NCBI GenBank assembly: GCA_002633085.1
Contig: NSIV01000009.1
Coordinates: 1 to 64,000, forward strand
Length of the DNA stretch: 64,000 nucleotides
DNA from: Curvibacter sp. PD_MW3
GTDB lineage: Bacteria; Pseudomonadota; Gammaproteobacteria; Burkholderiales; Burkholderiaceae_C
Reading direction: 5' to 3'
Part shown: in pieces, positions 592 to 64,000 of the stretch
Position numbering within the stretch: the first letter of the stretch is position 1
Layout of the letters: every line of letters begins with the position of its first letter
The notes under the pieces: model-generated
What the model was told of the DNA's origin: nothing
The model's input: the letters and a program-made list of their open reading frames with translations, nothing else
Databases searched by the model: none
Made by a program: the position numbers and the translations under genes

Positions 592-1272
592 ATGAGTCTG
601 AGCAACTCCCTCGGGTTGCTGGGCCGCAAGGTGGGCATGATGCGTCTGTTCACCGATGACGGGGACGCAGTGCCCGTCACGGTGGTGGATGTGTCCAACA
701 ACCGTGTGACCCAGGTGAAAACCCAAGAGAACGACGGCTACGTTGCCCTGCAGGTGACGTTCGGTTCGCGCAAAGCTTCGCGCGTGACCAAGCCGGAAGC
801 TGGCCACCTTGCCAAGGCAGGTGTTGAAGCCGGTGAAATCATTCAAGAATTCCGTGTCACGCCCGATGCTGCTGCGCAGTACAAGACGGGTGCGGTTGTG
901 CCCGTGTCGGCCGTGTTTGCGGTTGGCCAGAAGGTGGACGTGCAGGGCACTTCCATCGGTAAGGGCTTTGCTGGCACGATCAAGCGCCACAACTTCAGTT
1001 CGCAGCGTGCTTCTCACGGTAACAGCCGTTCGCACAATGTCCCGGGCTCCATCTCGATGGCGCAGGATCCGGGCCGCGTGTTCCCGGGCAAGAAAATGAC
1101 CGGCCACATGGGCGACCAGACCAAGACGACCCAGAACCTGGATGTGATCCGTATTGACGAAGCACGCCAGCTGCTGCTGATCAAGGGTGCAATCCCCGGT
1201 TCCGCTGGTGGCTTCGTGACTGTGCGTCCGGCCATCAAGGTTAAAGCCAAGAGCGCGAAAGGAGCGAACTGA
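592..1272 (+). CDS. rplC: 50S ribosomal protein L3
   Basis: L3 is an early-assembling 50S protein near the peptidyl transferase centre. The ORF track opens at 571, but the ATG at 592 ([20 protein letters not shown]) has the AAGGAG ribosome site six bases before it and matches the family start, so 226 residues are assigned. The extended loop [17 protein letters not shown] and the motif GKKMTGHMG are L3 signatures. Its stop overlaps the rplD start by one base (TGATG), indicating coupled translation. Confidence 0.97.
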
Positions 1273-1892
1273 TGCAGCTCGAACTCCTGAATGACCAAGG
1301 CCAGGCTGCTTCCAAGCTGGAAGCCCCTGATACCGTGTTTGGTCGTGAATACAACGAAGATCTGGTTCACCAGATTGTGGTGGCTTTCCAGGCCAACGCG
1401 CGTCAAGGCACCCGTGCCCAAAAAGACCGCGAACAGGTCAAGCACTCCACCAAGAAGCCTTTCAAGCAAAAGGGAACTGGCCGTGCTCGTGCCGGTATGA
1501 CGTCCTCGCCGCTGTGGCGCGGAGGCGGTCGTATTTTCCCGAACAGCCCGGAAGAAAACTTCACCCAGAAAATCAACAAGAAGATGTACCGCGCCGGCAT
1601 GGCGTCGATCTTCTCGCAACTGGCTCGCGAAGGCCGCCTGGCCGTGGTTGACTCGCTCAAGGTCGAGTCCCCCAAGACCAAGGTGCTGGCTGCCAAGTTC
1701 AAGGCGATGAATCTGGACTCCGTGATGGTGATTGCCGACGAAGTCGACGAGAACCTGTACCTGGCTTCCCGCAATCTGGTGAATGTGCTGGTGGTTGAGC
1801 CGCGTTACGCCGATCCGGTGTCGCTGGTCCACTACCGCAAGGTGCTGGTCACCAAGGCTGCTGTGGACAAACTCAAGGAGATGTTCGCATGA
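1272..1892 (+). CDS. rplD: 50S ribosomal protein L4
   Basis: L4 binds 23S rRNA, lines the peptide exit tunnel and in enterics also represses its own S10 operon. The 206-residue product has the tunnel-loop region [26 protein letters not shown] and ends at KLKEMFA. It is translationally coupled on both sides: one-base overlap with rplC and a four-base ATGA overlap with rplW. No enteric-type L4-responsive S10 leader can be recognised here because rpsJ sits directly behind tuf. Confidence 0.97.
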
Positions 1893-2203
1893 GCGCCGTC
1901 AAGTTTGAAGAAGGTCGTCTGATGCAAGTGCTCGTCGCCCCGATCGTGTCTGAAAAGGCAACGATGGTGGCTGAGAAGAGCAATGCTGTGACGTTCAAGG
2001 TGCTGCAGGATGCTACCAAGCCCGAAATCAAGGCCGCTGTGGAATTGATGTTCAAGGTTGAGGTCAAGGCTGTTTCTGTGGTCAACACCAAAGGCAAGAC
2101 CAAGCGTTTTGGCAAGTCCGTCGGCCGTCGCGACAATGTTCGCAAAGCCTATGTGATGCTGAAGCCGGGTCAAGAGCTGAACCTCTCTGGGGAGGCCGCG
2201 TAA
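1889..2203 (+). CDS. rplW: 50S ribosomal protein L23
   Basis: L23 sits at the exit of the peptide tunnel and docks trigger factor and SRP. The 104-residue protein shows the family pattern: [15 protein letters not shown] near the N terminus, then [20 protein letters not shown] and [12 protein letters not shown]. It starts inside the rplD stop (ATGA) and is followed two bases later by rplB, so it belongs to a tightly coupled operon. Confidence 0.97.
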
Positions 2204-2205
2204 TC

Positions 2206-3030
2206 ATGGCTGTTATCAAGATGAAACCGACTTCGCCGGGCCGTCGTGGCGTGGTGAAGATTTCGCGTGATCACCTGCACAAGGGTGAGGCTTACGCTCC
2301 CCTGCTCGAGCCGCAGTTCCAGCAGGCCGGCCGTAACAACAACGGTCACATCACCACCCGTCACAAGGGCGGTGGTCACAAGCACCACTACCGTGTGGTC
2401 GACTTCAAGCGCAACAAGGATGCGATTCCGGCCAAGGTCGAGCGTATTGAGTACGACCCGAACCGTTCGGCCCACATCGCTCTGGTGTGCTATGCCGACG
2501 GCGAGCGTCGCTACATCATTGCGCCGCGTGGCCTGGAAGTGGGCGCGACCATCATGAGCGGTGCCGAAGCACCGATCCGTGTTGGCAACACCCTGCCGAT
2601 CCGCAACATTCCCGTGGGTTCGATCATCCATTGCATCGAACTGCAAGTCGGTAAAGGTGCTCAGGTGGTTCGTTCCGCCGGTGCATCCGCTACCTTGCTG
2701 GCACGCGAAGGTACTTACGCTCAGGTTCGTATGCGCTCTGGTGAAGTGCGCAAGATCCACATTGAATGCCGCGCCACCATTGGCCAGGTTGCCAATGAAG
2801 AGCACAGCCTGCGTCAGCTCGGCAAGGCCGGTGTGAAGCGCTGGATGGGTATTCGCCCGACCGTTCGCGGTGTGGTGATGAACCCGGTGGATCACCCCCA
2901 CGGTGGTGGTGAAGGTAAGACCGGCGAGGGCCGTCATCCTGTCGATCCTTGGGGTAATCTGACCAAGGGTTACCGTACCCGCAACAACAAGCGCACACAA
3001 GTGATGATTGTGTCGCGTCGTAAGAAGTAA
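2206..3030 (+). CDS. rplB: 50S ribosomal protein L2
   Basis: L2 is essential for subunit association and peptidyl transferase activity. The 274 residues are full length, with [14 protein letters not shown] at the start, the RNA-binding core [11 protein letters not shown] and the conserved C-terminal [16 protein letters not shown] containing the functionally important histidine. It lies two bases after rplW and eleven before rpsS. Confidence 0.98.
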
Positions 3031-3041
3031 GGGGAACGCAA

Positions 3042-3320
3042 ATGACTCGCTCTCTCAAAAAGGGTCCATTTGTGGACCATCACCTGGTGGCCAAGGCTGA
3101 CAAGGCTGTGACCACCAAGGATAAAAAGCCGATCAAGACCTGGTCGCGTCGCTCCATGATCCTGCCCGAGTTCATCGGCTTGACCATTGCCGTGCACAAC
3201 GGCAAGCAGCACGTGCCGGTCTATATCACCGACCAAATGGTGGGCCACAAGTTGGGCGAGTTCGCACTCACCCGGACTTTCAAGGGTCACCCTGCGGACA
3301 AAAAAGTCCAGAAGAAATAA
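3042..3320 (+). CDS. rpsS: 30S ribosomal protein S19
   Basis: S19 is part of the 30S head and contacts S13 and the A-site tRNA. The 92-residue product has the canonical [15 protein letters not shown] start, the [22 protein letters not shown] core and a lysine-rich tail ending VQKK. A ribosome site AGGGGAACG precedes the ATG. rplV follows after ten bases. Confidence 0.98.
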
Positions 3321-3330
3321 GGAGGTGACC

Positions 3331-3660
3331 ATGGAAACACGTGCAACCCTTCGTGGCGTTCGCCTCTCGGTCGACAAAGGCCGTCTGGTCGCCGACCTGA
3401 TCCGCGGCAAGAAAGTGGACCAAGCCCTGAACATCCTGCAATTCACGCAGAAAAAAGCTGCTGTGATCATCAAGAAGGTTCTGGAGTCCGCGATTGCCAA
3501 TGCTGAGCACAACGACGGTGCCGATATCGACGAACTGAAGGTCAAGACCATCTATGTCGAGCAGGGCACTACGCTCAAGCGCTTTACCGCGCGCGCCAAA
3601 GGCCGCGGCAACCGTATCAGCAAGCCCACGTGCCATGTGTACGTGACGGTGGGCAACTGA
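3331..3660 (+). CDS. rplV: 50S ribosomal protein L22
   Basis: L22 forms part of the peptide exit tunnel with L4. The track ORF begins at 3187 inside rpsS, but the ATG at 3331 follows a very strong AAGGAGGTG site and gives the expected 109-residue protein starting [13 protein letters not shown]. The family features [14 protein letters not shown], the [22 protein letters not shown] loop and the tail CHVYVTVGN are present. Confidence 0.97.
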
Positions 3661-3676
3661 AAGAGGTCTGGAAGAT

Positions 3677-4564
3677 ATGGGACAAAAAATCAACCCCACC
3701 GGCTTTCGCCTCGCGGTCAGCCGCAACTGGGCTTCTCGCTGGTACGCCAACAACCGTGACTTCGCCGGCATGCTGGCTGAAGACATCAAGGTGCGTGAGT
3801 ACCTGAAGACCAAGCTGAAGAACGCTTCGGTGTCGCGCGTTCTGATCGAGCGTCCGGCCAAGAACGCCCGCATCACGATTTTCTCGGCTCGTCCGGGCGT
3901 CGTGATCGGCAAGAAAGGCGAGGACATCGAAAACCTCAAGCGCGAACTCGGCAAGCAGCTGGGTGTGCCGGTGGCAGTCAACATCGAAGAAGTGCGCAAG
4001 CCTGAAATCGATGCCAAGCTGATCGCCGACAGCATCACGCAGCAGCTCGAGAAGCGCATCATGTTCCGTCGTGCCATGAAGCGTGCCATGCAAAACGCCA
4101 TGCGTCTGGGTGCCCTGGGCATCAAGATCATGTCGTCTGGCCGTCTGAACGGTATCGAAATCGCCCGTACCGAGTGGTACCGCGAAGGCCGTGTGCCGCT
4201 GCACACCCTGCGCGCCGACATCGACTACGGCACCTCCGAAGCCAAGACCACCTATGGTGTGATCGGCGTCAAGGTGTGGGTCTACAAGGGCGATACGCTG
4301 GGTCGCAATGACCTGCCGGCCGTCGAGACCCCGCGTCCTGATGAAGAGCGTCGCCCCCGCGGTCCGCGTCGTGATGCCCGTCCTGGTTCGGATCGTCCCG
4401 CTCCGCGCGGTGCACGTCGTCCGGCCGGTGGCAATACCGCACCTGCCGATGGCAGCGACAAACCCGCAGAGGCCACTGGTGCCGATGCCCCGAAAACCGC
4501 CGTTAAGCGCGTCCGCAAAGTCGCCGCGCCAGCTGCAGCAGCTGACGGCGCCAAAGGAGAATAA
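3677..4564 (+). CDS. rpsC: 30S ribosomal protein S3 with long C-terminal tail
   Basis: S3 binds mRNA at the entry channel and has helicase activity with S4. The first 215 or so residues are a normal S3: N-terminal domain from [16 protein letters not shown] domain with [14 protein letters not shown], then the C-terminal domain to [10 protein letters not shown]. The total of 295 residues exceeds the 233 of the E. coli protein because of a low-complexity Arg/Pro/Ala tail ([16 protein letters not shown] and onward). Longer tails are usual in this bacterial order, as far as I know. rplP follows after two bases. Confidence 0.97.
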
Positions 4565-54853: not shown

Positions 54854-55022
54854 TGTCGCAGGATGGGTGGATCAACGCATGCGGCCAGCTTTTTGGCGTT
54901 CGTAGGGTCGCATTGTCTCAATTTCCAGGAAGACCGCGTCACGATGGGCCAGAACGGCCTCCGTTCATTTGAAGCCGCAAGACACGACCGCCCTCGCTAA
55001 GTATGACCAAGGAAGCAACGCC

Positions 55023-56036
55023 ATGAAGATTCTGCTCACCGGAGGAGCCGGTTATATCGGCAGTCATACTGCGGTGGTATTGGCGCAAGCCGGGCATGAG
55101 GTGGTGCTGTACGACAACCTGTGCAACAGCGACATCGGGGTGGTCAATCATCTGGCGAAAATTACCAGGCGGTCCATGGCATTTGTCGAGGGCGATATTC
55201 GTGACACCGAATTGTTGACCCAGACGCTGCGCACTTCTGGCATTGAAGCCGTCATCCACTTCGCCGGCCTCAAGGCGGTGGGCGAGTCGGTCGACCAACC
55301 GATTGAGTATTACGCCAACAATGTGCAGGGCACCATCAGCCTGTTGCAGGCCATGCGGGCCGTGTCGATCACCACCCTGGTTTTCAGCAGCAGTGCGACG
55401 GTGTATGGCGAGCCGCAGTACTTGCCGCTGGATGAGATGCACCCGACCAGTGCCACCAATCCCTATGGGCGCAGCAAGTTGCATATCGAAGAAATGCTGC
55501 TGGACGTGGCCAAGTCCGACGAGCGTTGGCGCATCGCCTGTTTGCGGTATTTCAATCCGGTTGGCGCACACGACAGCGCGCTGATCGGCGAAAACCCCCG
55601 CGGAATTCCGAATAACCTGATGCCCTACATTGCGCAGGTGGCAGCGGGGCAACGGCCGGCACTTCAAGTGTTTGGCGATGATTACCCGACGCCGGACGGC
55701 ACCGGCGTCCGGGATTACATCCATGTGATGGATCTGGCGCGAGGGCATCTGGCGGCCCTGGGTTTCCTGGCTCGCCGTGCTGGCTGGCATGCCGTCAATT
55801 TGGGGACAGGGCACGGCAGCAGCGTTCTTGAAATGGTTCGTGCTTTTGAGTGCGTGAGTGGCAAGCCTGTTCCTTACAACATCACACCGCGTCGGCCAGG
55901 CGACGTGGCGGCCTGTTATGCAAAGGCCGACAAGGCCGCTCAGGAAGTGGGCTGGTCAGCCCAGCTGGGTCTGGAAGACATGTGCCGCAGCACGTGGGAA
56001 TTCCAGCGTCAGAGCGAATCCGGGTCTTCTCATTGA
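55023..56036 (+). CDS. galE: UDP-glucose/UDP-N-acetylglucosamine 4-epimerase
   Basis: The 337-residue SDR epimerase has NAD site LLTGGAGYIGSH and the catalytic Tyr148/Lys152 (NPYGRSK). The track start at 54969 is replaced by the ATG at 55023, which has AAGGA upstream. Position 298 is Cys in GDVAACYAKADK, where E. coli GalE has the blocking Tyr299; human GALE, which accepts N-acetyl sugars, has GDVAACYA with Cys. UDP-GalNAc supply for the following pel genes is therefore likely. Confidence 0.92.
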   Translation: MKILLTGGAGYIGSHTAVVLAQAGHEVVLYDNLCNSDIGVVNHLAKITRRSMAFVEGDIRDTELLTQTLRTSGIEAVIHFAGLKAVGESVDQPIEYYANNVQGTISLLQAMRAVSITTLVFSSSATVYGEPQYLPLDEMHPTSATNPYGRSKLHIEEMLLDVAKSDERWRIACLRYFNPVGAHDSALIGENPRGIPNNLMPYIAQVAAGQRPALQVFGDDYPTPDGTGVRDYIHVMDLARGHLAALGFLARRAGWHAVNLGTGHGSSVLEMVRAFECVSGKPVPYNITPRRPGDVAACYAKADKAAQEVGWSAQLGLEDMCRSTWEFQRQSESGSSH

Positions 56037-56228: not shown

Positions 56229-59018
56229 ATGCACCCAATCCGATGGATTGCCGGAGTCGTGCCATCGTTTGCGCTGAAAACGTGCGGACTGCTGCTGGGC
56301 GTCCTGCTGATGACAGGATCGGCCTGGGCGGCGCCGGCGGTTGCCTTTTATTACGGTAGCAACCCTCCCTGGGAGAGTCTGCAGGCATTTGACCTGGTCG
56401 TGGTCGATCCGGGACATGTCCCAGATATACAAATCGCCAAGCTGCCGCAGACCGAGTTGGCCGCCTATGTGTCGGTCGGCGAGGTGCACCCGTCTCGTGC
56501 CTATGCCAAGCGCATCCCTGCCGCCTGGTTGCGTGGTGAGAACAGGGACTGGGGTAGCCGCTTGATTGACCAGGCAGCCCCTGGGTGGCCGCAGTTTTTT
56601 GCTGAATCCGTGATCGCACCTTTGTGGGAAAAGGGGTATCGCAGCTTTTTCCTCGATACCCTGGATTCCTATCACTTGTTTGCCAAGACCGCTGAGGAGA
56701 AATCCCGTCAGGAAGCGGGGCTGGTGGCACTCGTGAAGGAGGTCAAACGTCGTTACCCGCAGGCCAAGCTGATCTTCAACCGTGGCTTCGAGATCCTGGA
56801 GCCGACGCGGGGCGACGTGGCGATGATCGCGGCGGAATCCCTGTTTCAGGGTTACGACGCCGGTCGAGCTGTTTACCGCAAAGTGCCTCAAGACGATCAG
56901 GCATGGCTGCGTGCACAACTCAAGCGTGCCCGTGACGAATACGGTCTGCCCGGCATCGTCATCGACTATGTACCGCCGGCACAAAGAGAGCTGGCAAGAG
57001 AGACGGCACGGCGCATCGAAGCGCAGGGCTTCATTCCCTGGGTTGCCACGCCAAACCTGGCCAGCCTGGGCGTGGGCCTGGTCGAAGTGATGCCCCGGCG
57101 CATCCTGGTCGTCCATAGTCCCTTGGCCAGCGAATATGCGTTGCGTGCGACGGATGCCGTGCGTTACGCCACGATGCCGCTCAATTACCTCGGTTATGTG
57201 GTGGAGTACGTCGATACCCAGTCTCTGCCAGAGGGCGGGCTGGCTGGGCGCTATGCCGGTGTGGTGCTCTGGCTAGAGGCTCCGGGCACAGCCCGTGAGC
57301 GGACGAAACTCGCCACATGGTTAGCACAGCGTGTCGATGAAGGCTTACCGGTGGCACTGGTCAACGAAATCGGCCCCATGCTGGAGTCGCCATTGAAGGA
57401 CAAGCTGGGGGTGGATGCGCCAACCACGTCGGATCAGGCAGGCCCCGTCAGCATTGCCGTGCAATCGCCGATGGTTGGTTTGGAGCGTCAGCCACGACCC
57501 CATCCAAGCGAGTTTCAGGCGCTGACGATCCAACAAGGCCAGCCTTTGCTGACATTGACCAAGGGCGCGGCAAAACAGGTGGCCGCAGCGATCACGCCCT
57601 GGGGGGGCTATGTCATGGCCCCTTATGCGACGGTGACGCTGTCCAGTGGGGAGCAGAACCGTTGGGTGATTGATCCCTTCGCTTTTTTTCGTGAGTCTTT
57701 GCGTCTGCCGCTCATGCCGGTGCCGGATGTGACGACTGAAAGCGGGCGGCGGATGCTGATGGTGCACATGGATGGCGATGGCTTTGTCAGTCGTTCGGAA
57801 TTGCCGGGCAAACCCTTTGCCGGTGAAGTGGTCCGTGACCGGATCGTCAGGAAGTACCGGCTGCCGATGACCCTGTCGGTGATCGAAGCCGAGTTGTCGC
57901 CGCAAGGCCTGTACCCCCAGCTGTCAGCGCAGATGGAGGCGGTGGCCAAGGAGATCTTCAGCGAGCCGCATGTGGAGATCGCCTCGCACAGCTACTCGCA
58001 TCCATTCAATTGGCGCATGGCCAACCGCAAGGACGCTGCTGAAGGCTACCACCTGAACATACCGGGCTACCAGTACGACCTGCAGCGTGAGATCGAGGGC
58101 TCTGTCCACTATGTCCAGAGACGTTTGGCACCTGCGGACAAGAACGTGGCGATGTTCTTCTGGACGGGGGATTGCATACCGGGGCGCGATGCGCTGGCCT
58201 GGACGCAAAAAGTGGGTGTGCTGAACATGAATGGCGGCGATACGCTGGCCACGCGCTCCAACCCCACCCTGACCTCGGTCGAAGGGCTTGGCATCGAGCG
58301 CAATGGGCTGTTCCAGGTTTTTGCGCCCAACCAGAACGAGAACGTCTACACCAACAACTGGACCGGGCCGTTTTACGGCTTTGAACGTGTCCTGGAAACG
58401 TTTGAATTCACAGAAAAACCGAGGCGGCTCAAACCGGTCGATGTTTATTTCCATAGCTATCTGGTAACCAAGCCGGCGGGACTCAAATCACTGGACAAGG
58501 TGTTCGACTGGGTTCTGGCGCAGGAATTGACACCGGTCTTCGCGTCGGACTATGCGCGCAAGGTCGAGTCTTTTCGCCGCATGGCGGTTGCCAAGACGGC
58601 GAATGGATGGCGTATCCGAGGTGACGGTAATTTGCGCACCGTGCGCCTGCCGTCGGCGCTGGGCCAGCCCAACTTGCAGACGAGCCAGTCCGTGGCCGGT
58701 TTCAACCAGCATGAAGGCGAGACCTATGTGCATTTGTTAGGTCCTTCGGCCGAGCTGCTTGTCTCGCCGCAGCCTGTGAACAGTGTGAGATTGGTCTCGG
58801 CCAATGCAGCTGTGGAGTCAGCGGAGCGCACGGAGGGGGGCTTTCGCTGGAACCTGGCCGGACACGTTCCTTTGCGCGTGACCTTGGCCAATGCGGAGCG
58901 CTGTCGCGTCCGGGCCGGCGGACGCGACCTCGTGCCGGTGCGCGGCCGAGATGGCCAATTCCATTACCAACTGAATACCCATGCTGCCAGACCGCTCGAA
59001 GCGATATGCCGGAATTGA
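56229..59018 (+). CDS. pelA: PelA, bifunctional Pel polysaccharide deacetylase/hydrolase
   Basis: PelA partly deacetylates and hydrolyses the Pel polymer in the periplasm. The 929-residue protein has a signal peptide (to GSAWA), an N-terminal GH114-type TIM barrel with acidic residues at FLDTLDSY and AAESLFQGYD (Glu203), then a Rossmann-like domain and a CE4-like deacetylase with HMDGDGF (Asp515, Asp517) and ASHSYSHPF (His587, His591). A C-terminal beta domain follows. No Shine-Dalgarno precedes the ATG. It overlaps the next gene by 38 bases. Confidence 0.94.
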   Translation: MHPIRWIAGVVPSFALKTCGLLLGVLLMTGSAWAAPAVAFYYGSNPPWESLQAFDLVVVDPGHVPDIQIAKLPQTELAAYVSVGEVHPSRAYAKRIPAAWLRGENRDWGSRLIDQAAPGWPQFFAESVIAPLWEKGYRSFFLDTLDSYHLFAKTAEEKSRQEAGLVALVKEVKRRYPQAKLIFNRGFEILEPTRGDVAMIAAESLFQGYDAGRAVYRKVPQDDQAWLRAQLKRARDEYGLPGIVIDYVPPAQRELARETARRIEAQGFIPWVATPNLASLGVGLVEVMPRRILVVHSPLASEYALRATDAVRYATMPLNYLGYVVEYVDTQSLPEGGLAGRYAGVVLWLEAPGTARERTKLATWLAQRVDEGLPVALVNEIGPMLESPLKDKLGVDAPTTSDQAGPVSIAVQSPMVGLERQPRPHPSEFQALTIQQGQPLLTLTKGAAKQVAAAITPWGGYVMAPYATVTLSSGEQNRWVIDPFAFFRESLRLPLMPVPDVTTESGRRMLMVHMDGDGFVSRSELPGKPFAGEVVRDRIVRKYRLPMTLSVIEAELSPQGLYPQLSAQMEAVAKEIFSEPHVEIASHSYSHPFNWRMANRKDAAEGYHLNIPGYQYDLQREIEGSVHYVQRRLAPADKNVAMFFWTGDCIPGRDALAWTQKVGVLNMNGGDTLATRSNPTLTSVEGLGIERNGLFQVFAPNQNENVYTNNWTGPFYGFERVLETFEFTEKPRRLKPVDVYFHSYLVTKPAGLKSLDKVFDWVLAQELTPVFASDYARKVESFRRMAVAKTANGWRIRGDGNLRTVRLPSALGQPNLQTSQSVAGFNQHEGETYVHLLGPSAELLVSPQPVNSVRLVSANAAVESAERTEGGFRWNLAGHVPLRVTLANAERCRVRAGGRDLVPVRGRDGQFHYQLNTHAARPLEAICRN

Positions 59019-59880
59019 CGAGGAGCCGCCGCGGCTCAAGCTCGTCAATCACTGGCAACTGCTCTTGGCGGCCATCTTGATGGTCGGGCTGCTGCGTGCC
59101 ATCTTCCCGCAAAAGGCCTTGGTCGAGGAACTGTATGGCCGCGAAAAGCTGGATGAACTGACGCTGTCCTATATCGAAAACCTGCACCGAACGCAGCCTA
59201 ACAATGCCGACCTGACGATCCTGCTTGCGAGAGCCCAGCAAGAACAGCTGGATCTGACGGCGCTGGAACGCTTGCTCAATCCGATACTCCAGTCGGGTCG
59301 CGATGACGCGCGTCAGCGCTCCGAGGCCCGGTTGCTGCTGCTTCGAAGTTATGAGCGCACCCTGGCCAGCAGCTTGCCCGGTCCCGATCGGGCAACATGG
59401 GAGCGTCGTTTGACGGGATTCCTGCGCGAGTCCAGCGAAGACGAGATCCTGCCGCAACTGGCCGGCGAATTTGCGGCCGAGGCCTTCAACCTGGGCTTGA
59501 CGAACCTGGGGCTCAGGTTTCTTCGGCGCATTTCGCAGCAGGATCCCAGCACGGCACTGGCAGATCACGCGCACGCTGAATTGGCCCAAGGGCACCACGC
59601 GCTCGCAGCTGAATACTTCATGCTGGCCAGGCATCAGACCGAGGACAGGGATCTTGCACGCGCATATTTCCGCCGTGGGGTTTCTGCGCTCATGGCGGCG
59701 AGCCGTTTTCAGCAGGCCATGGAACTGGTGGACCGAAACCTGGGTGACTTGGCCGACGACAGGGATACCTTGAATTTCCTGACACGGACCGCGTTGGCTG
59801 CCGGTGAGCCTGGGCGTGCGGCCCGTTACGCACAGCAGCTGGTTTTTTCGGAGAAGCCCGCGACAGGAGCGGCACAGTGA
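58981..59880 (+). CDS. pelB: PelB N-terminal part: inner-membrane-anchored TPR protein
   Basis: The 299-residue protein has a single membrane helix (about residues 25-42, WQLLLAAILMVGLLRAIF) and a helical-repeat periplasmic domain (LSYIENLHRTQPNNADLTIL and onward). This corresponds to the N-terminal region of the roughly 1190-residue PelB of Pseudomonas aeruginosa. The stop overlaps the next start as GTGA. It starts 38 bases before the pelA stop. It is one of two pieces of PelB in this genome. Confidence 0.85.
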   Translation: MLPDRSKRYAGIDEEPPRLKLVNHWQLLLAAILMVGLLRAIFPQKALVEELYGREKLDELTLSYIENLHRTQPNNADLTILLARAQQEQLDLTALERLLNPILQSGRDDARQRSEARLLLLRSYERTLASSLPGPDRATWERRLTGFLRESSEDEILPQLAGEFAAEAFNLGLTNLGLRFLRRISQQDPSTALADHAHAELAQGHHALAAEYFMLARHQTEDRDLARAYFRRGVSALMAASRFQQAMELVDRNLGDLADDRDTLNFLTRTALAAGEPGRAARYAQQLVFSEKPATGAAQ

Positions 59881-62852
59881 CTCGCGGGCTAGCGTTGGCA
59901 TGGTTGATGGCTGTGGCCGAGCTTGGGATGGCCAACGATGCGGCGTGGCCCCCTGCCAGTTCGCCGGCCGAGGCCACGCCGGGGAAAACGACCTCCGGGC
60001 CACGGGTCACACCGGCACTGGACCAGGCCTCGGTGAAGCTGCGGCCTTTCAACCAGGATGACTACGACCTGGCGTTCACGGCTTTCATGGGCGGTGGCGA
60101 TCTCAACCGAGCCTATCTTTTGGCGAGCAAGGCTGTGCAGAGTGTGCCCGCGGATCTTGAGTGGCGCCGGCGACTTGCGCGCGTATCCGAGTGGGTCGGC
60201 AAACCATTGGTGGCCTGGGAGAGCTGGGTGTATCTGTTCCAGCAGGGTGAGCGATCCGATGAGGTGATCAATGGTGTCGTGAGATTGGCCCCTTACGTGG
60301 GGCAGCCGGATGTCGCGATCGCGGCGTGGGAATATCGCGCCGCGAGTACCTCGCTCAGTGAAGCCCAATGGGCAGACATTCGTTTCCTGTACGAAGCCGT
60401 CGGCAAACCCCAGCAGGGGCGCCGGTTCTTTGAGGCGCAATATCAGAAACGGCACGACGGGCGGCTGCTTGAGCATGCCGCCGCGCTGGCAGAGAACGCG
60501 GGCGAAGATGACAAGGCGTTGCAGCTGTACCTTGACCGTGTGCGACTCAAGCCGTTCTCGACCGAATCAACGCTGCGTGCCGCTTTGTTGTTGTTGCGCC
60601 GTGACCGGGAGCGAGAAGCCTTTGCCTTGTTGTTGGCGCACAGCCAGGAGGTGCCGGAAGATGCCAAGGAGGCCGAGGAGGTGGAAGAGTTCTGGCGTCT
60701 GCTTGGCAACACGGCGTGGGAGTTGATGGAGAACGATGCGGCCGAAATGGCCTATCGGCGTTACGTGCCCAGTCCGTCCGCAACGGCTGGGGATTGGGGG
60801 CGCCTGATTTATCTGGTTCGCCAACGGCATCCCAGCGTTGCGGCGGAGCTGTCCTTTGAGGCCTATCGCCGCTACGGGAGTGTTGAGCACCTGTTGCAGG
60901 CCTTGGGTATCTTTGCAGAAGCTTCGGATGCCAAGGGTGAGGCGCGGCTCTACCAGCAACTCAAGGCGCAGGAGTTGGAAGGGCTTGAGCAGGATGCACG
61001 TTTTCTGGTTCTGCGTGCCCAGTATTTCCAGCGCGTGGCCGAGCCCGAGAAATCCTGGGGGGACTATCGACGGGCTTTGGCCATCAACCCGTTCGACCCT
61101 CAAGTCGCAACACCCGCCCTGTGGTTCCTGATTGACGCCGGACGCAGGAAGGAGCTGGAGATCCTCTTGGGTGTTCTGCGGGCGACAGCCCACAAGGAAG
61201 CCGCGTACTGGCTGCCTTTTGCGGCGGCCAATCTGGTACTTGATCAGCCGCAGAAAGCACTGGTCTGGTACCGCAAGGAAGTGCGGCGCAATCCGGACGA
61301 CGTCTTGCTGCTGCTCAATTACGCCGAGGTGTTGCAGCGTGTGCAGCAAGCCGGCATGGCTGCACGTGTGCGCCAGCATGCGTGGTTGCGTCTGCGGGAG
61401 AGGCAGGCGGCCCTCGATGCATCTGACAAACAGCCGGAGCTCCTGGCCTTGACACAGCTGGCGCTGCTGAACCGGCCGGGCGATCCGTCGTTGGCCCTGG
61501 TGCGCCAGGTTGCGGGTCGCTTGCGTGGGGTGCCGGTGGCGCAAGAGGACGTTGCGCAGACGCGTGACCTGATCCTGGGCTGGGCGGTCGCGACGGAGCA
61601 GCAGGCCAACGCCCGCCAATGGTTATGGCTGAACTACGCCCGCCAAGCGGGGCAGCCCGGACGTACACCGCCGCTGTCGCTGCAAAGCCAGATGGCTTTG
61701 CAAGCCGGTGATGTCCAGGCCATGAAAAGTTTGCTGGCGGACCACGCAGATCGCCTGTCGCTCAGCAGCCGTTATGACATGGCAGCGGCGCTGGGCGACC
61801 ACGCCCAGGCCGAAAGCGCTGCGTTTGCCGCAATGCAGGGGAATGACGATGATGCGGACATGCATGAGCGTTACCGTCAGCAGGTTCCTCTGCGTGCCAA
61901 TTACCTGCAGTTCAGGTACGCCAAGAACCAGTACGGTGACCTGGATGTGCGCAGTCGCCAGATGGAGGCGCGCATTGCCCTGGGTGTCGGGCGGCAGTTG
62001 CTGCTGGGGTGGGCGGAAAATTCACAGGGCAGTGCCGAGCCGGTACTTGCGTCCTACGTACCAAGATCAGAGCGGCTGACGAGCCTGGGCATGCGCTGGC
62101 AGCGGGAGCTGGGAGAGACGCAAGTCAATGTCTTCCAGCGGGATGAGCGTGACAAGAATACCGGTCTGCGCTTCGCACAGACCGGTGCCTGGGGCCGTCG
62201 GCTGACACTGGATGGCACGTTGGGCTGGCGCATCGATTCGAGCGACAGCCTGCCGCTGCGGGTTGCCGGGTCGGAAGATCAGGTGCAGCTGGGCTTCAAT
62301 TACGCCTTGAGCCGGCGCGAGTATGTGCGCATGACGACACGCATGGCGCGGTACTACACGCAGTCGGGCGACAGCCTGGGGGCGGGGCGTGTCCACGAAT
62401 TTGAAGCCGGGCACCGGATCAGGACGGAATACCCCGACTTCCGTGTGCGCCTCTTTGCCACGCAGCAAAGCTATACCTACGATGACGACGTGGGCGACCG
62501 CACGCGGAAACTGTCCCCGGACGTGCGTGCTGCCGCAGCGGCGGGGACGATCGATCCAATGAAGTATTTCCTGCCGCAGGGCAGCACGACGTGGGGGGCT
62601 TGTCTGGGGGTGGGCGAGAACCGCGCCGGACAGAGCGTCCAGGAGGTCTATTCCCGGGCTTTCAAGCCGTTTTTCGAGACCTGCTCAACCAGCAACAGCC
62701 TCAATGGGGGCGGCTATACGGGCGTGCTCGGCATCGCCGGCACGGTCACGGGCGAAGATCACTTGTCTTTGCGGATCGAACAAAGCAGTGGTGGATCAGG
62801 AACGGGTGCCTTGACGCGGGTTCTTGCTCTTCGGTACCGACATTATTTTTGA
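59877..62852 (+). CDS. pelB: PelB C-terminal part: TPR repeats and outer-membrane beta-barrel
   Basis: This 991-residue protein begins with a GTG that overlaps the upstream stop by four bases. It has its own short signal sequence (TRGLALAWLMAVAELGMA), many TPR-like helical pairs (about 50-680) and a C-terminal beta-barrel rich in alternating aromatic strands, ending LRYRHYF with the C-terminal Phe expected for BAM substrates. It is the export channel for Pel. The separate signal and coupled overlap argue for a true split gene and not a frameshift. Confidence 0.87.
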   Translation: MTRGLALAWLMAVAELGMANDAAWPPASSPAEATPGKTTSGPRVTPALDQASVKLRPFNQDDYDLAFTAFMGGGDLNRAYLLASKAVQSVPADLEWRRRLARVSEWVGKPLVAWESWVYLFQQGERSDEVINGVVRLAPYVGQPDVAIAAWEYRAASTSLSEAQWADIRFLYEAVGKPQQGRRFFEAQYQKRHDGRLLEHAAALAENAGEDDKALQLYLDRVRLKPFSTESTLRAALLLLRRDREREAFALLLAHSQEVPEDAKEAEEVEEFWRLLGNTAWELMENDAAEMAYRRYVPSPSATAGDWGRLIYLVRQRHPSVAAELSFEAYRRYGSVEHLLQALGIFAEASDAKGEARLYQQLKAQELEGLEQDARFLVLRAQYFQRVAEPEKSWGDYRRALAINPFDPQVATPALWFLIDAGRRKELEILLGVLRATAHKEAAYWLPFAAANLVLDQPQKALVWYRKEVRRNPDDVLLLLNYAEVLQRVQQAGMAARVRQHAWLRLRERQAALDASDKQPELLALTQLALLNRPGDPSLALVRQVAGRLRGVPVAQEDVAQTRDLILGWAVATEQQANARQWLWLNYARQAGQPGRTPPLSLQSQMALQAGDVQAMKSLLADHADRLSLSSRYDMAAALGDHAQAESAAFAAMQGNDDDADMHERYRQQVPLRANYLQFRYAKNQYGDLDVRSRQMEARIALGVGRQLLLGWAENSQGSAEPVLASYVPRSERLTSLGMRWQRELGETQVNVFQRDERDKNTGLRFAQTGAWGRRLTLDGTLGWRIDSSDSLPLRVAGSEDQVQLGFNYALSRREYVRMTTRMARYYTQSGDSLGAGRVHEFEAGHRIRTEYPDFRVRLFATQQSYTYDDDVGDRTRKLSPDVRAAAAAGTIDPMKYFLPQGSTTWGACLGVGENRAGQSVQEVYSRAFKPFFETCSTSNSLNGGGYTGVLGIAGTVTGEDHLSLRIEQSSGGSGTGALTRVLALRYRHYF

Positions 62853-62865
62853 TAGAAGGATGGAT

Positions 62866-63411
62866 ATGAACATCAACAGGCGTTCTTTGCTCGTACTCGC
62901 AGCGCTGGCCATGGCGGGGTGTTCCACGCTCAGTTCGGTGTCATCCGGGACTGTGCTGGCGCGCGACCAGAAATGGGTCTTGCTGCCGATGGTGAATCAC
63001 ACCGACACGCCGCAAGCAGGGCTGGCGGCAGAGTCCATCGCAGAGCATGTGCTGCGTTTGCGTGGCATTGACAACCTGGTTCGTTATCCCGCGACCTTGT
63101 CGCGCGACAGCCTGTTCGAGCCGGCGGAGCGCCGCGTCGTGGAAGAGGCCCAGAAATGGGCGCGTGAACAGGGCGCGCGCTATGGGCTGACGGGCGTGGT
63201 GGAGGAGTGGCGTTACAAGGTCGGCATCGATGGCGAGCCGGCCGTGGGCCTGACCTTGCAGGTGATCGATCTCGCAGATGGCCGGGTGGTCTGGAGTGCT
63301 TCAGGCGCCAGGAGCGGCTGGAGCCGGGAGCCCTTGTCGGGGGTGGCCAATCAGTTGCTGAATGAAATGATGGCCAAGCTCCCGTTGCAGGCAGCAGCGG
63401 CTGCACCTTAA
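62866..63411 (+). CDS. pelC: PelC, outer-membrane lipoprotein
   Basis: PelC forms a ring at the outer membrane that funnels Pel to PelB. The 181-residue protein has a lipoprotein signal ending LAMAGCSTL and the family core KWVLLPMVNHTDTPQAGLAAESIAE and LTGVVEEWRYKVG. ATG at 62866 is preferred because AAGGA precedes it by five bases; the ATG at 62860 is nearly on top of the ribosome site. Confidence 0.91.
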   Translation: MNINRRSLLVLAALAMAGCSTLSSVSSGTVLARDQKWVLLPMVNHTDTPQAGLAAESIAEHVLRLRGIDNLVRYPATLSRDSLFEPAERRVVEEAQKWAREQGARYGLTGVVEEWRYKVGIDGEPAVGLTLQVIDLADGRVVWSASGARSGWSREPLSGVANQLLNEMMAKLPLQAAAAAP

Positions 63412-63420
63412 CGGGTAAAC

Positions 63421-64000
63421 ATGACGGCTCATTTTCTGAAATCGGTCTGGCAGCGTTTGCGCCCGGGACAGTCGCGCGTGTCCGGGGAGAGTGAGTCGCA
63501 CGGCCAATGGCTGGAGGCGATTGTGATCCCGTTGGTGTTCATGGGACTGGCGTGGTCGCTGAAGCCGCAAGACCCATTCCTGCTGGGCTCGGTGTTTCCC
63601 TGGTTATGGTTCGCTCCCGTGCTGGCTGCGCTGCGTTACGGGGTTGCGCCAGGCTTGGTGAGCGGGTGTGTTCTTCTCGGGGCGTGGCTGATCGCAAATG
63701 TTGCCGGCCTGGCGGCCGTGGCGCGGACTGACTTTCCCAAAGACTATTTTTTTGGCGGGGGCTTGCTCGTTCTGCTGTGTGGAAAATTCAGTGATGTCTG
63801 GCGCGATCGTTATCAGCGCATGGACGAGGCCAATCTGTATGTGACCGAGCGGCTGTCGCGTCTGACCAAGCGTCATCTGTTGCTCAATCTGTCGCATGAC
63901 CGGTTAGAGCAGGAAATGCTGGCGCGTCCCGGCTCGCTTCGTGATGCGCTGACGAGTTTGCGCGACCTTGTTCTGAAAAGCGAGCGCGGCGAGGGCGCAT
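63421..64000 (+). CDS. pelD: PelD, inner-membrane c-di-GMP receptor (5' part)
   Basis: The 193 visible codons start MTAHFLKSVWQRLRPG and encode four membrane segments (VIPLVFMGLAW; VFPWLWFAPVLAAL; VSGCVLLGAWLIANVAG; FFGGGLLVLLCGKFSDVW) followed by the start of the GAF linker (LTKRHLLLNLSHDRLEQEM). In P. aeruginosa PelD binds c-di-GMP through a degenerate GGDEF domain. That part lies past the window end, as do pelE, pelF and pelG. Confidence 0.9.
   Translation, partial: MTAHFLKSVWQRLRPGQSRVSGESESHGQWLEAIVIPLVFMGLAWSLKPQDPFLLGSVFPWLWFAPVLAALRYGVAPGLVSGCVLLGAWLIANVAGLAAVARTDFPKDYFFGGGLLVLLCGKFSDVWRDRYQRMDEANLYVTERLSRLTKRHLLLNLSHDRLEQEMLARPGSLRDALTSLRDLVLKSERGEGA

Follow-up and report, generated by a model that had tools for sequence, protein, structure and literature searches.

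Pel polysaccharide leaves the cell of Pseudomonas aeruginosa through PelB (PA3063; PDB 9h80), a single chain of 1193 residues. In Curvibacter sp. PD_MW3, a freshwater bacterium and relative of Curvibacter, two open reading frames lie where pelB is expected, between pelA and pelC of a pel operon. This raises the question of whether the exporter is made there as two proteins, whether a single gene has been broken, or whether the first frame is something other than a part of PelB. The window that we analysed comprises 64,000 nt (assembly GCA_002633085.1, contig NSIV01000009.1, positions 1-64,000, forward strand). Its end falls inside the operon, which is a complete pelA-G set around the split pelB, pelE, pelF and pelG being found downstream on the contig beyond the window (PelD_GGDEF, DUF3492/GT and PelG matches on L003). 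Features within the window are collected in Table 1. Just upstream of pelA, at 54969-56036, is a gene that by its sequence is UDP-glucose 4-epimerase-like and could be the source of the GalNAc sugar nucleotide for Pel.

Table 1. Positions of the pel genes and of features within the divided pelB in the window
Feature	Position	Strand	Basis or remark
pelA, GH114-type hydrolase / deacetylase	56229..59018	+	PF03537, E 1.9e-18
ORF1 (PelB-N), inner-membrane anchor and early periplasmic TPR-like repeats, 299 aa, ATG start	58981..59880	+	
Transmembrane helix predicted for ORF1 at residues 24-41; no apparent cleavage site	59050..59103	+	structure model
AGGAG within ORF1, likely to serve ORF2 as ribosome-binding site	59865..59869	+	sequence; 7 nt ahead of GTG
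GTGA, start of ORF2 overlapping stop of ORF1	59877..59880	+	NTGA in 17/19 named relatives
ORF2 (PelB-C), signal-peptide-like start, TPRs and outer-membrane barrel, 991 aa, GTG start	59877..62852	+	
N-terminal signal-peptide-like segment of ORF2 (residues 1-19), probably cut between GMA and ND	59877..59933	+	sequence; relatives
Ala/Pro-rich linker of ORF2, residues 20-55 (36 residues)	59934..60041	+	alignment; SPOR domain here in sister genera
ORF2 residues ~105-211, equivalent of PAO1 PelB 332-436, part of PelA-binding TPR region	60189..60509	+	alignment correspondence
TPR block	60564..61397	+	PF13429, E 4.5e-57
PelB C-terminal beta-barrel	61896..62846	+	PF24604, E 3.9e-64
pelC lipoprotein	62860..63411	+	lipobox AMAGC, weak LpoB match
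pelD, runs past window edge	63421..64000	+	

Anatomy of the two proteins

ORF1 has a single strong hydrophobic stretch followed by alpha-helical repeats. In each of the 19 relatives the strongest 17-residue hydrophobic window begins at residue 27, and an AF2 model (pLDDT 80.7) consists of a helix at this place and thereafter entirely of helical repeats, for which Foldseek returns TPR proteins. The predicted inner-membrane helix, for which we see no cleavage site, is found on ORF1 only; the N-terminus of PAO1 PelB is likewise an uncleaved inner-membrane helix (PMC12141448, PMC12022489). When a profile of 18 ORF1 proteins is compared with the PDB, the best match is to residues 8-264 of PAO1 PelB (9h80_M, E 7.9e-4), with the anchor helix aligned to the PAO1 N-terminus. 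As a direct match this is weak, and the assignment of ORF1 to PelB is based on profile, position and topology.

Against all PDB chain sequences (phmmer) the sole match of ORF2 is PAO1 PelB (9h80, residues 282-1064, E 1.4e-28), and it scores 217.6 bits against the PelB barrel family PF24604, for which the cut-off is 31. A long periplasmic TPR scaffold precedes the barrel, seen as the PF13429 block in ORF2 and as helical repeats in the model of ORF1. The N-terminus, MTRGLALAWLMAVAELGMA followed at the probable cut by NDA, is signal-peptide-like on inspection; read by eye the segment is a modest one in the window, with a Glu near its end. The ORF2 starts of relatives have a hydrophobic core and a small-x-small site. 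Residues 1-55 evolve faster than the remainder of ORF2 (dN/dS 0.40 vs 0.11); purifying selection is evident on both frames taken whole (dN/dS 0.09 for ORF1 and 0.12 for ORF2, window vs C. delicatus).

The two frames are thus collinear with PAO1 PelB, and the break therefore corresponds to PAO1 residues about 264-282. TPR1-19 of PAO1 PelB span residues 69-726 (PMC12022489), and by arithmetic from that span the break comes after about the sixth TPR. PelA binds PAO1 PelB at residues 332-436, or TPR 9-14 (PMC12141448, PMC12022489), a region that by alignment corresponds to a part of ORF2. Inner-membrane helix, TPRs, stalk and 16-strand barrel follow in the same order as in P. aeruginosa, in the same operon and with PelC adjoining; the difference is that anchor, TPRs and barrel are here spread over two frames, each with its own start and stop, instead of lying on one chain. 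Since the single chain is a trait of the reference protein, not of its function, we refer to the Curvibacter exporter as a split variant of PelB. The initial annotation had described frames of 299 and 991 residues overlapping at GTGA, which is borne out, and had read them as an anchor and early-TPR protein followed by a separately exported TPR-barrel protein with its own signal peptide. Collinearity with PAO1 and conservation among relatives support that reading, and a signal-peptide-like start is seen in the window as in the relatives.

Could ORF1 instead be a separate Pel accessory, a second PelE-like inner-membrane TPR protein, with ORF2 exporting the polymer alone and untethered? Its generic TPR character and weak direct match to PAO1 PelB would allow this, as would the predicted export signal of ORF2 and the existence elsewhere of short barrel proteins that have no anchor (L045, L046). 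However, the ORF1 profile still finds PelB as its best PDB match, at the expected position and in the expected order, with the anchor helix in alignment; in the same family, single-chain PelBs can be aligned over both frames; and ORF1 is unlike PelE. The operon's PelE is a separate gene with which ORF1 gives no significant BLASTP alignment, which rules out ORF1 as a PelE copy, and no second copy of ORF1 was found in the genome. We consider the accessory role improbable.

A junction kept among relatives

The frames overlap, and a T6 tract at 59843-59848 lies in the overlap zone, where a -1 shift would join them. An error of sequencing or assembly, or a recent frameshift in a single pelB gene, could leave such a pattern, and broken PelBs do occur (for example L142, with two overlapping halves and no signal peptide). 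Yet 20 other genomes share the split while differing in the sequence of the T-tract, the overlap persists although start codons vary between ATG, GTG and TTG, the ORF2 start is signal-peptide-like throughout the relatives, and no constraint is seen in the ORF2 frame 5' of the GTG (window vs C. delicatus). Independent assemblies share the split, among them that of C. delicatus NBRC 14919 and the complete OS-4 genome, which refutes sequencing error; we regard breakage of a single gene as having almost no claim to the data.

The same tract, with the overlapping frames, might allow programmed -1 frameshifting, by which a full-length PelB would be made beside the two parts. C. delicatus, however, has GTCTTTGCC at the position of the T6 tract, and a search for a common slippery motif at this site among the relatives found none. 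The fusion product would moreover contain an internal signal peptide, and the pre-start part of the ORF2 frame is not conserved. As the slippery site is not conserved, we reject programmed frameshifting at the T6 tract; the probability that we would leave to joined frames is very small.

At locus L142 (2932-6532) PelB occupies two long overlapping frames without a signal peptide, in contrast to the real splits, and is probably a frameshifted gene or an assembly error.

What is retained at the junction is the overlap of stop and start. Among the 19 named relatives 17 have NTGA (N = A, G or T), one has TAATG and one a gap of 9 nt, and the AGGAG ahead of the ORF2 start is retained in C. delicatus and several relatives. 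Overlap and putative ribosome-binding site together suggest coupled translation of ORF1 and ORF2. The proposal made for this locus, that GTGA keeps the stoichiometry of the two proteins, goes too far, since an overlap points to coupling and not to equal amounts. A scan for promoters and terminators around the junction yielded nothing of use. The 3' end of pelA overlaps ORF1 in turn, by 38 nt (58981-59018); this overlap is as strictly kept as that between ORF1 and ORF2: 17 of the 19 named relatives have 38 nt, the other two 35 nt.

Distribution of split and single-chain PelB

In a survey of 26 genomes of the genus, five carry a PelB barrel and all five PelBs are split. When 85,000 species genomes were scanned for the ORF1 family, 19 loci came up, each with the ORF1/ORF2 pair, among them Curvibacter delicatus NBRC 14919 (the type strain, whose ORF1 shows 91% identity), Rhodoferax species, a Hylemonella MAG and OS-4 (complete genome); wherever the record names a family it is Comamonadaceae. 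The family survey added one more split genome (L089), so that the division recurs in 20 genomes beyond the window. Surveys with PF24604 covered 401 genomes of the family, 369 of the class, 399 of the order and 399 of the phylum. Outside the clade of the window PelB frames are mostly single, of ~1080-1500 residues. A single PelB in close relatives, with no second signal peptide, had been named in the initial annotation as evidence that would count against a natural split; other genera of the same family do have single-chain PelB, but the genus and the nearest clade are split without exception.

A -4 overlap and a new start resembling a signal peptide also mark splits in families f139, f172, f175 (twice), f191, f214 and f16. 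On an unrooted tree of 77 PelB C-termini the split/single label changes four times, or at least three times if well-supported branches are counted; SH-aLRT support is full for the clade of the window, which comprises 20 split rows. That all splits except L141 share one origin is not rejected (p-AU 0.164). L141, of family f16, is cut ~130 residues further along than the other splits, and L146 of the same family is single. Because L141 breaks at a different place, at least two independent fissions are secure; more than two are likely. The L141 locus (659-4428) codes for proteins of 413 and 843 aa with an ATGA overlap and a signal-peptide-like start, and its break lies near the stretch that corresponds to the PelA-binding TPRs. 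At L074 (G705:C6:633000-646000) the second ORF of a split pelB is itself broken by a frameshift.

Two reduced Pel loci from the same family as the window are of a different kind (L045:2577-6932 and L046:318-3085, both on the - strand). A hydrolase-only PelA of ~300 aa (GH114 in L045) directly precedes a short PelB of 620-634 aa with few TPRs, a barrel and its own signal-peptide-like start; in L045 PelD is next. No anchor part was seen near these short PelBs, so that some Pel systems may do without it.

At the site where the Curvibacter protein divides, the repeats of Pseudomonas-like PelBs and of several others are only five residues apart, and a further group has 10-14 residues there. Many single-chain PelBs of Burkholderiales, by contrast, carry at this site a variable Ala/Pro-rich linker of ~30-115 residues, which is probably flexible. 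The closest comparison is with other genera of the same family, which have the same barrel and TPRs; there a linker of ~13-107 residues, placed exactly at the split position, joins both parts and a second signal peptide is unneeded. Since long variable linkers occur at the site in single chains, the split sits where insertion is tolerated.

Fission within a linker and re-fusion that leaves a linker behind both fit this pattern. Under the second alternative the split is the older state in the clade, the single-chain Burkholderiales PelBs are re-fusions and their long linkers are fusion scars. That a single origin of window-type splits is not rejected by the AU test is in keeping with this, as are the location of the linkers precisely at the split site and the signal-peptide-like motif in the linkers of one clade (L154, L156, L164 and L165). 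The motif is, however, nominally significant in one member only (shuffle fraction 0.01, 23 linkers tested), and parsimony on the unrooted tree favours neither direction; we judge re-fusion unlikely, though deserving of consideration. The stretch itself is hydrophobic and ends in A-x-A inside a single chain, for example RRALLAALLDFLVPAAQA followed by DEH, and is possibly a fusion relic.

A division of pelB is not in itself new. The legend of Fig 5 in Bundalovic-Torma et al. 2020 (PMC7112194) refers to 'pelB fission' in aquatic thermophilic species, with pelB divided into separate loci within the pel operon, so this kind of split was already known. According to that legend, on which the comparison is based and which leaves breakpoints, overlaps, signal peptides and SPOR domains aside, the thermophile fissions occur in other organisms and as part of an operon rearrangement. 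The lineage, breakpoint, overlap and SPOR addition reported here appear to be undescribed in the literature that we searched, in which few subscription papers were covered. Alginate export offers another parallel, in that the repeat scaffold AlgK and the barrel AlgE are separate proteins (PMC9384988). There, however, it is the junction of scaffold and barrel that is cut, and the scaffold is a lipoprotein of the outer membrane; the Curvibacter PelB is cut within its scaffold, and the part set free is an inner-membrane protein.

A probable two-part exporter and its possible attachment

We think it very probable that the inner-membrane PelB-N and the exported PelB-C jointly replace the one PelB chain. 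PelB-N would be held in the inner membrane by its one uncleaved helix, with about the first six TPRs in the periplasm beside the PelDEFG synthase. PelB-C, exported through its own signal peptide, would become the outer-membrane part, made up of the later TPRs with the PelA-binding region among them, a stalk within the PelC ring, and the barrel. Like the single PelB of Pseudomonas, the pair would pick up Pel at the inner membrane, transfer it to PelA and release it outside, with the polymer moving from one TPR stack to the next, and the start/stop overlap would couple translation of the two genes. Because the break is at an insertion-tolerant spot between repeats, it would set loose no more than the inner-membrane tether and leave the PelA-PelB-PelC export core undivided on a single chain. 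The predicted anatomy, the collinearity with PelB, the conservation and the coupling signals can all be read from the genomes themselves; from these we infer that both parts are needed, that their amounts are matched, and that the two TPR stacks come together in the periplasm, whether by direct contact or by way of the Pel chain, PelA or PelE.

In sister genera a domain of 80 residues follows the ORF2 signal peptide (L092-L096, L100-L104 and L106; shortened in L099), lying between signal peptide and TPRs (for example L093:8110-8409); it is absent from the genus of the window, whose ORF2 has a short Ala/Pro-rich linker there. The SPOR family PF05036, whose domains bind peptidoglycan strands devoid of stem peptides, matches in all 10 members tested (best E 9.1e-7), although the first member scores 19.9 bits, just under the curated cut-off of 21. 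A model of the domain (mean pLDDT 68) has the beta-alpha-beta-beta-alpha-beta order of the SPOR fold. Foldseek gave no match to this model at E <0.001; the SPOR entries, CwlC SPOR 1x60 (TM 0.65) and RlpA SPOR 6i09 (TM 0.53, both by target length), have the best TM scores among the matches listed, but not the best E-values. These similarities suggest that the outer-membrane half in the sister clade is, or was, attached to peptidoglycan via a SPOR-like domain. The proposal that the two parts must interact non-covalently goes too far: direct contact need not be required, given that many single-chain relatives have a long, probably flexible linker, and sister genomes a SPOR domain, at this place.

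A broader reading may be offered tentatively, and we hold it to be somewhat less probable than its converse: that a covalent bridge from inner to outer membrane is dispensable for Pel export, that fission has been repeated, mostly at a pre-existing linker, and that the SPOR domain of the sister genera ties the outer-membrane half to peptidoglycan instead of to the inner membrane, as a third way of positioning the exporter. In exopolysaccharide secretion it is an open question whether PelB and related exporters span the two membranes as one continuous bridge. Here a relative that can be cultured and is not a known pathogen carries a natural split at a defined place, in a family that also has single-chain members; this makes that question experimentally tractable, and delimits which TPRs must remain with PelA and PelC. 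The SPOR addition, if true, points to cell-wall anchoring as something that can accompany the membrane tether or take its place.
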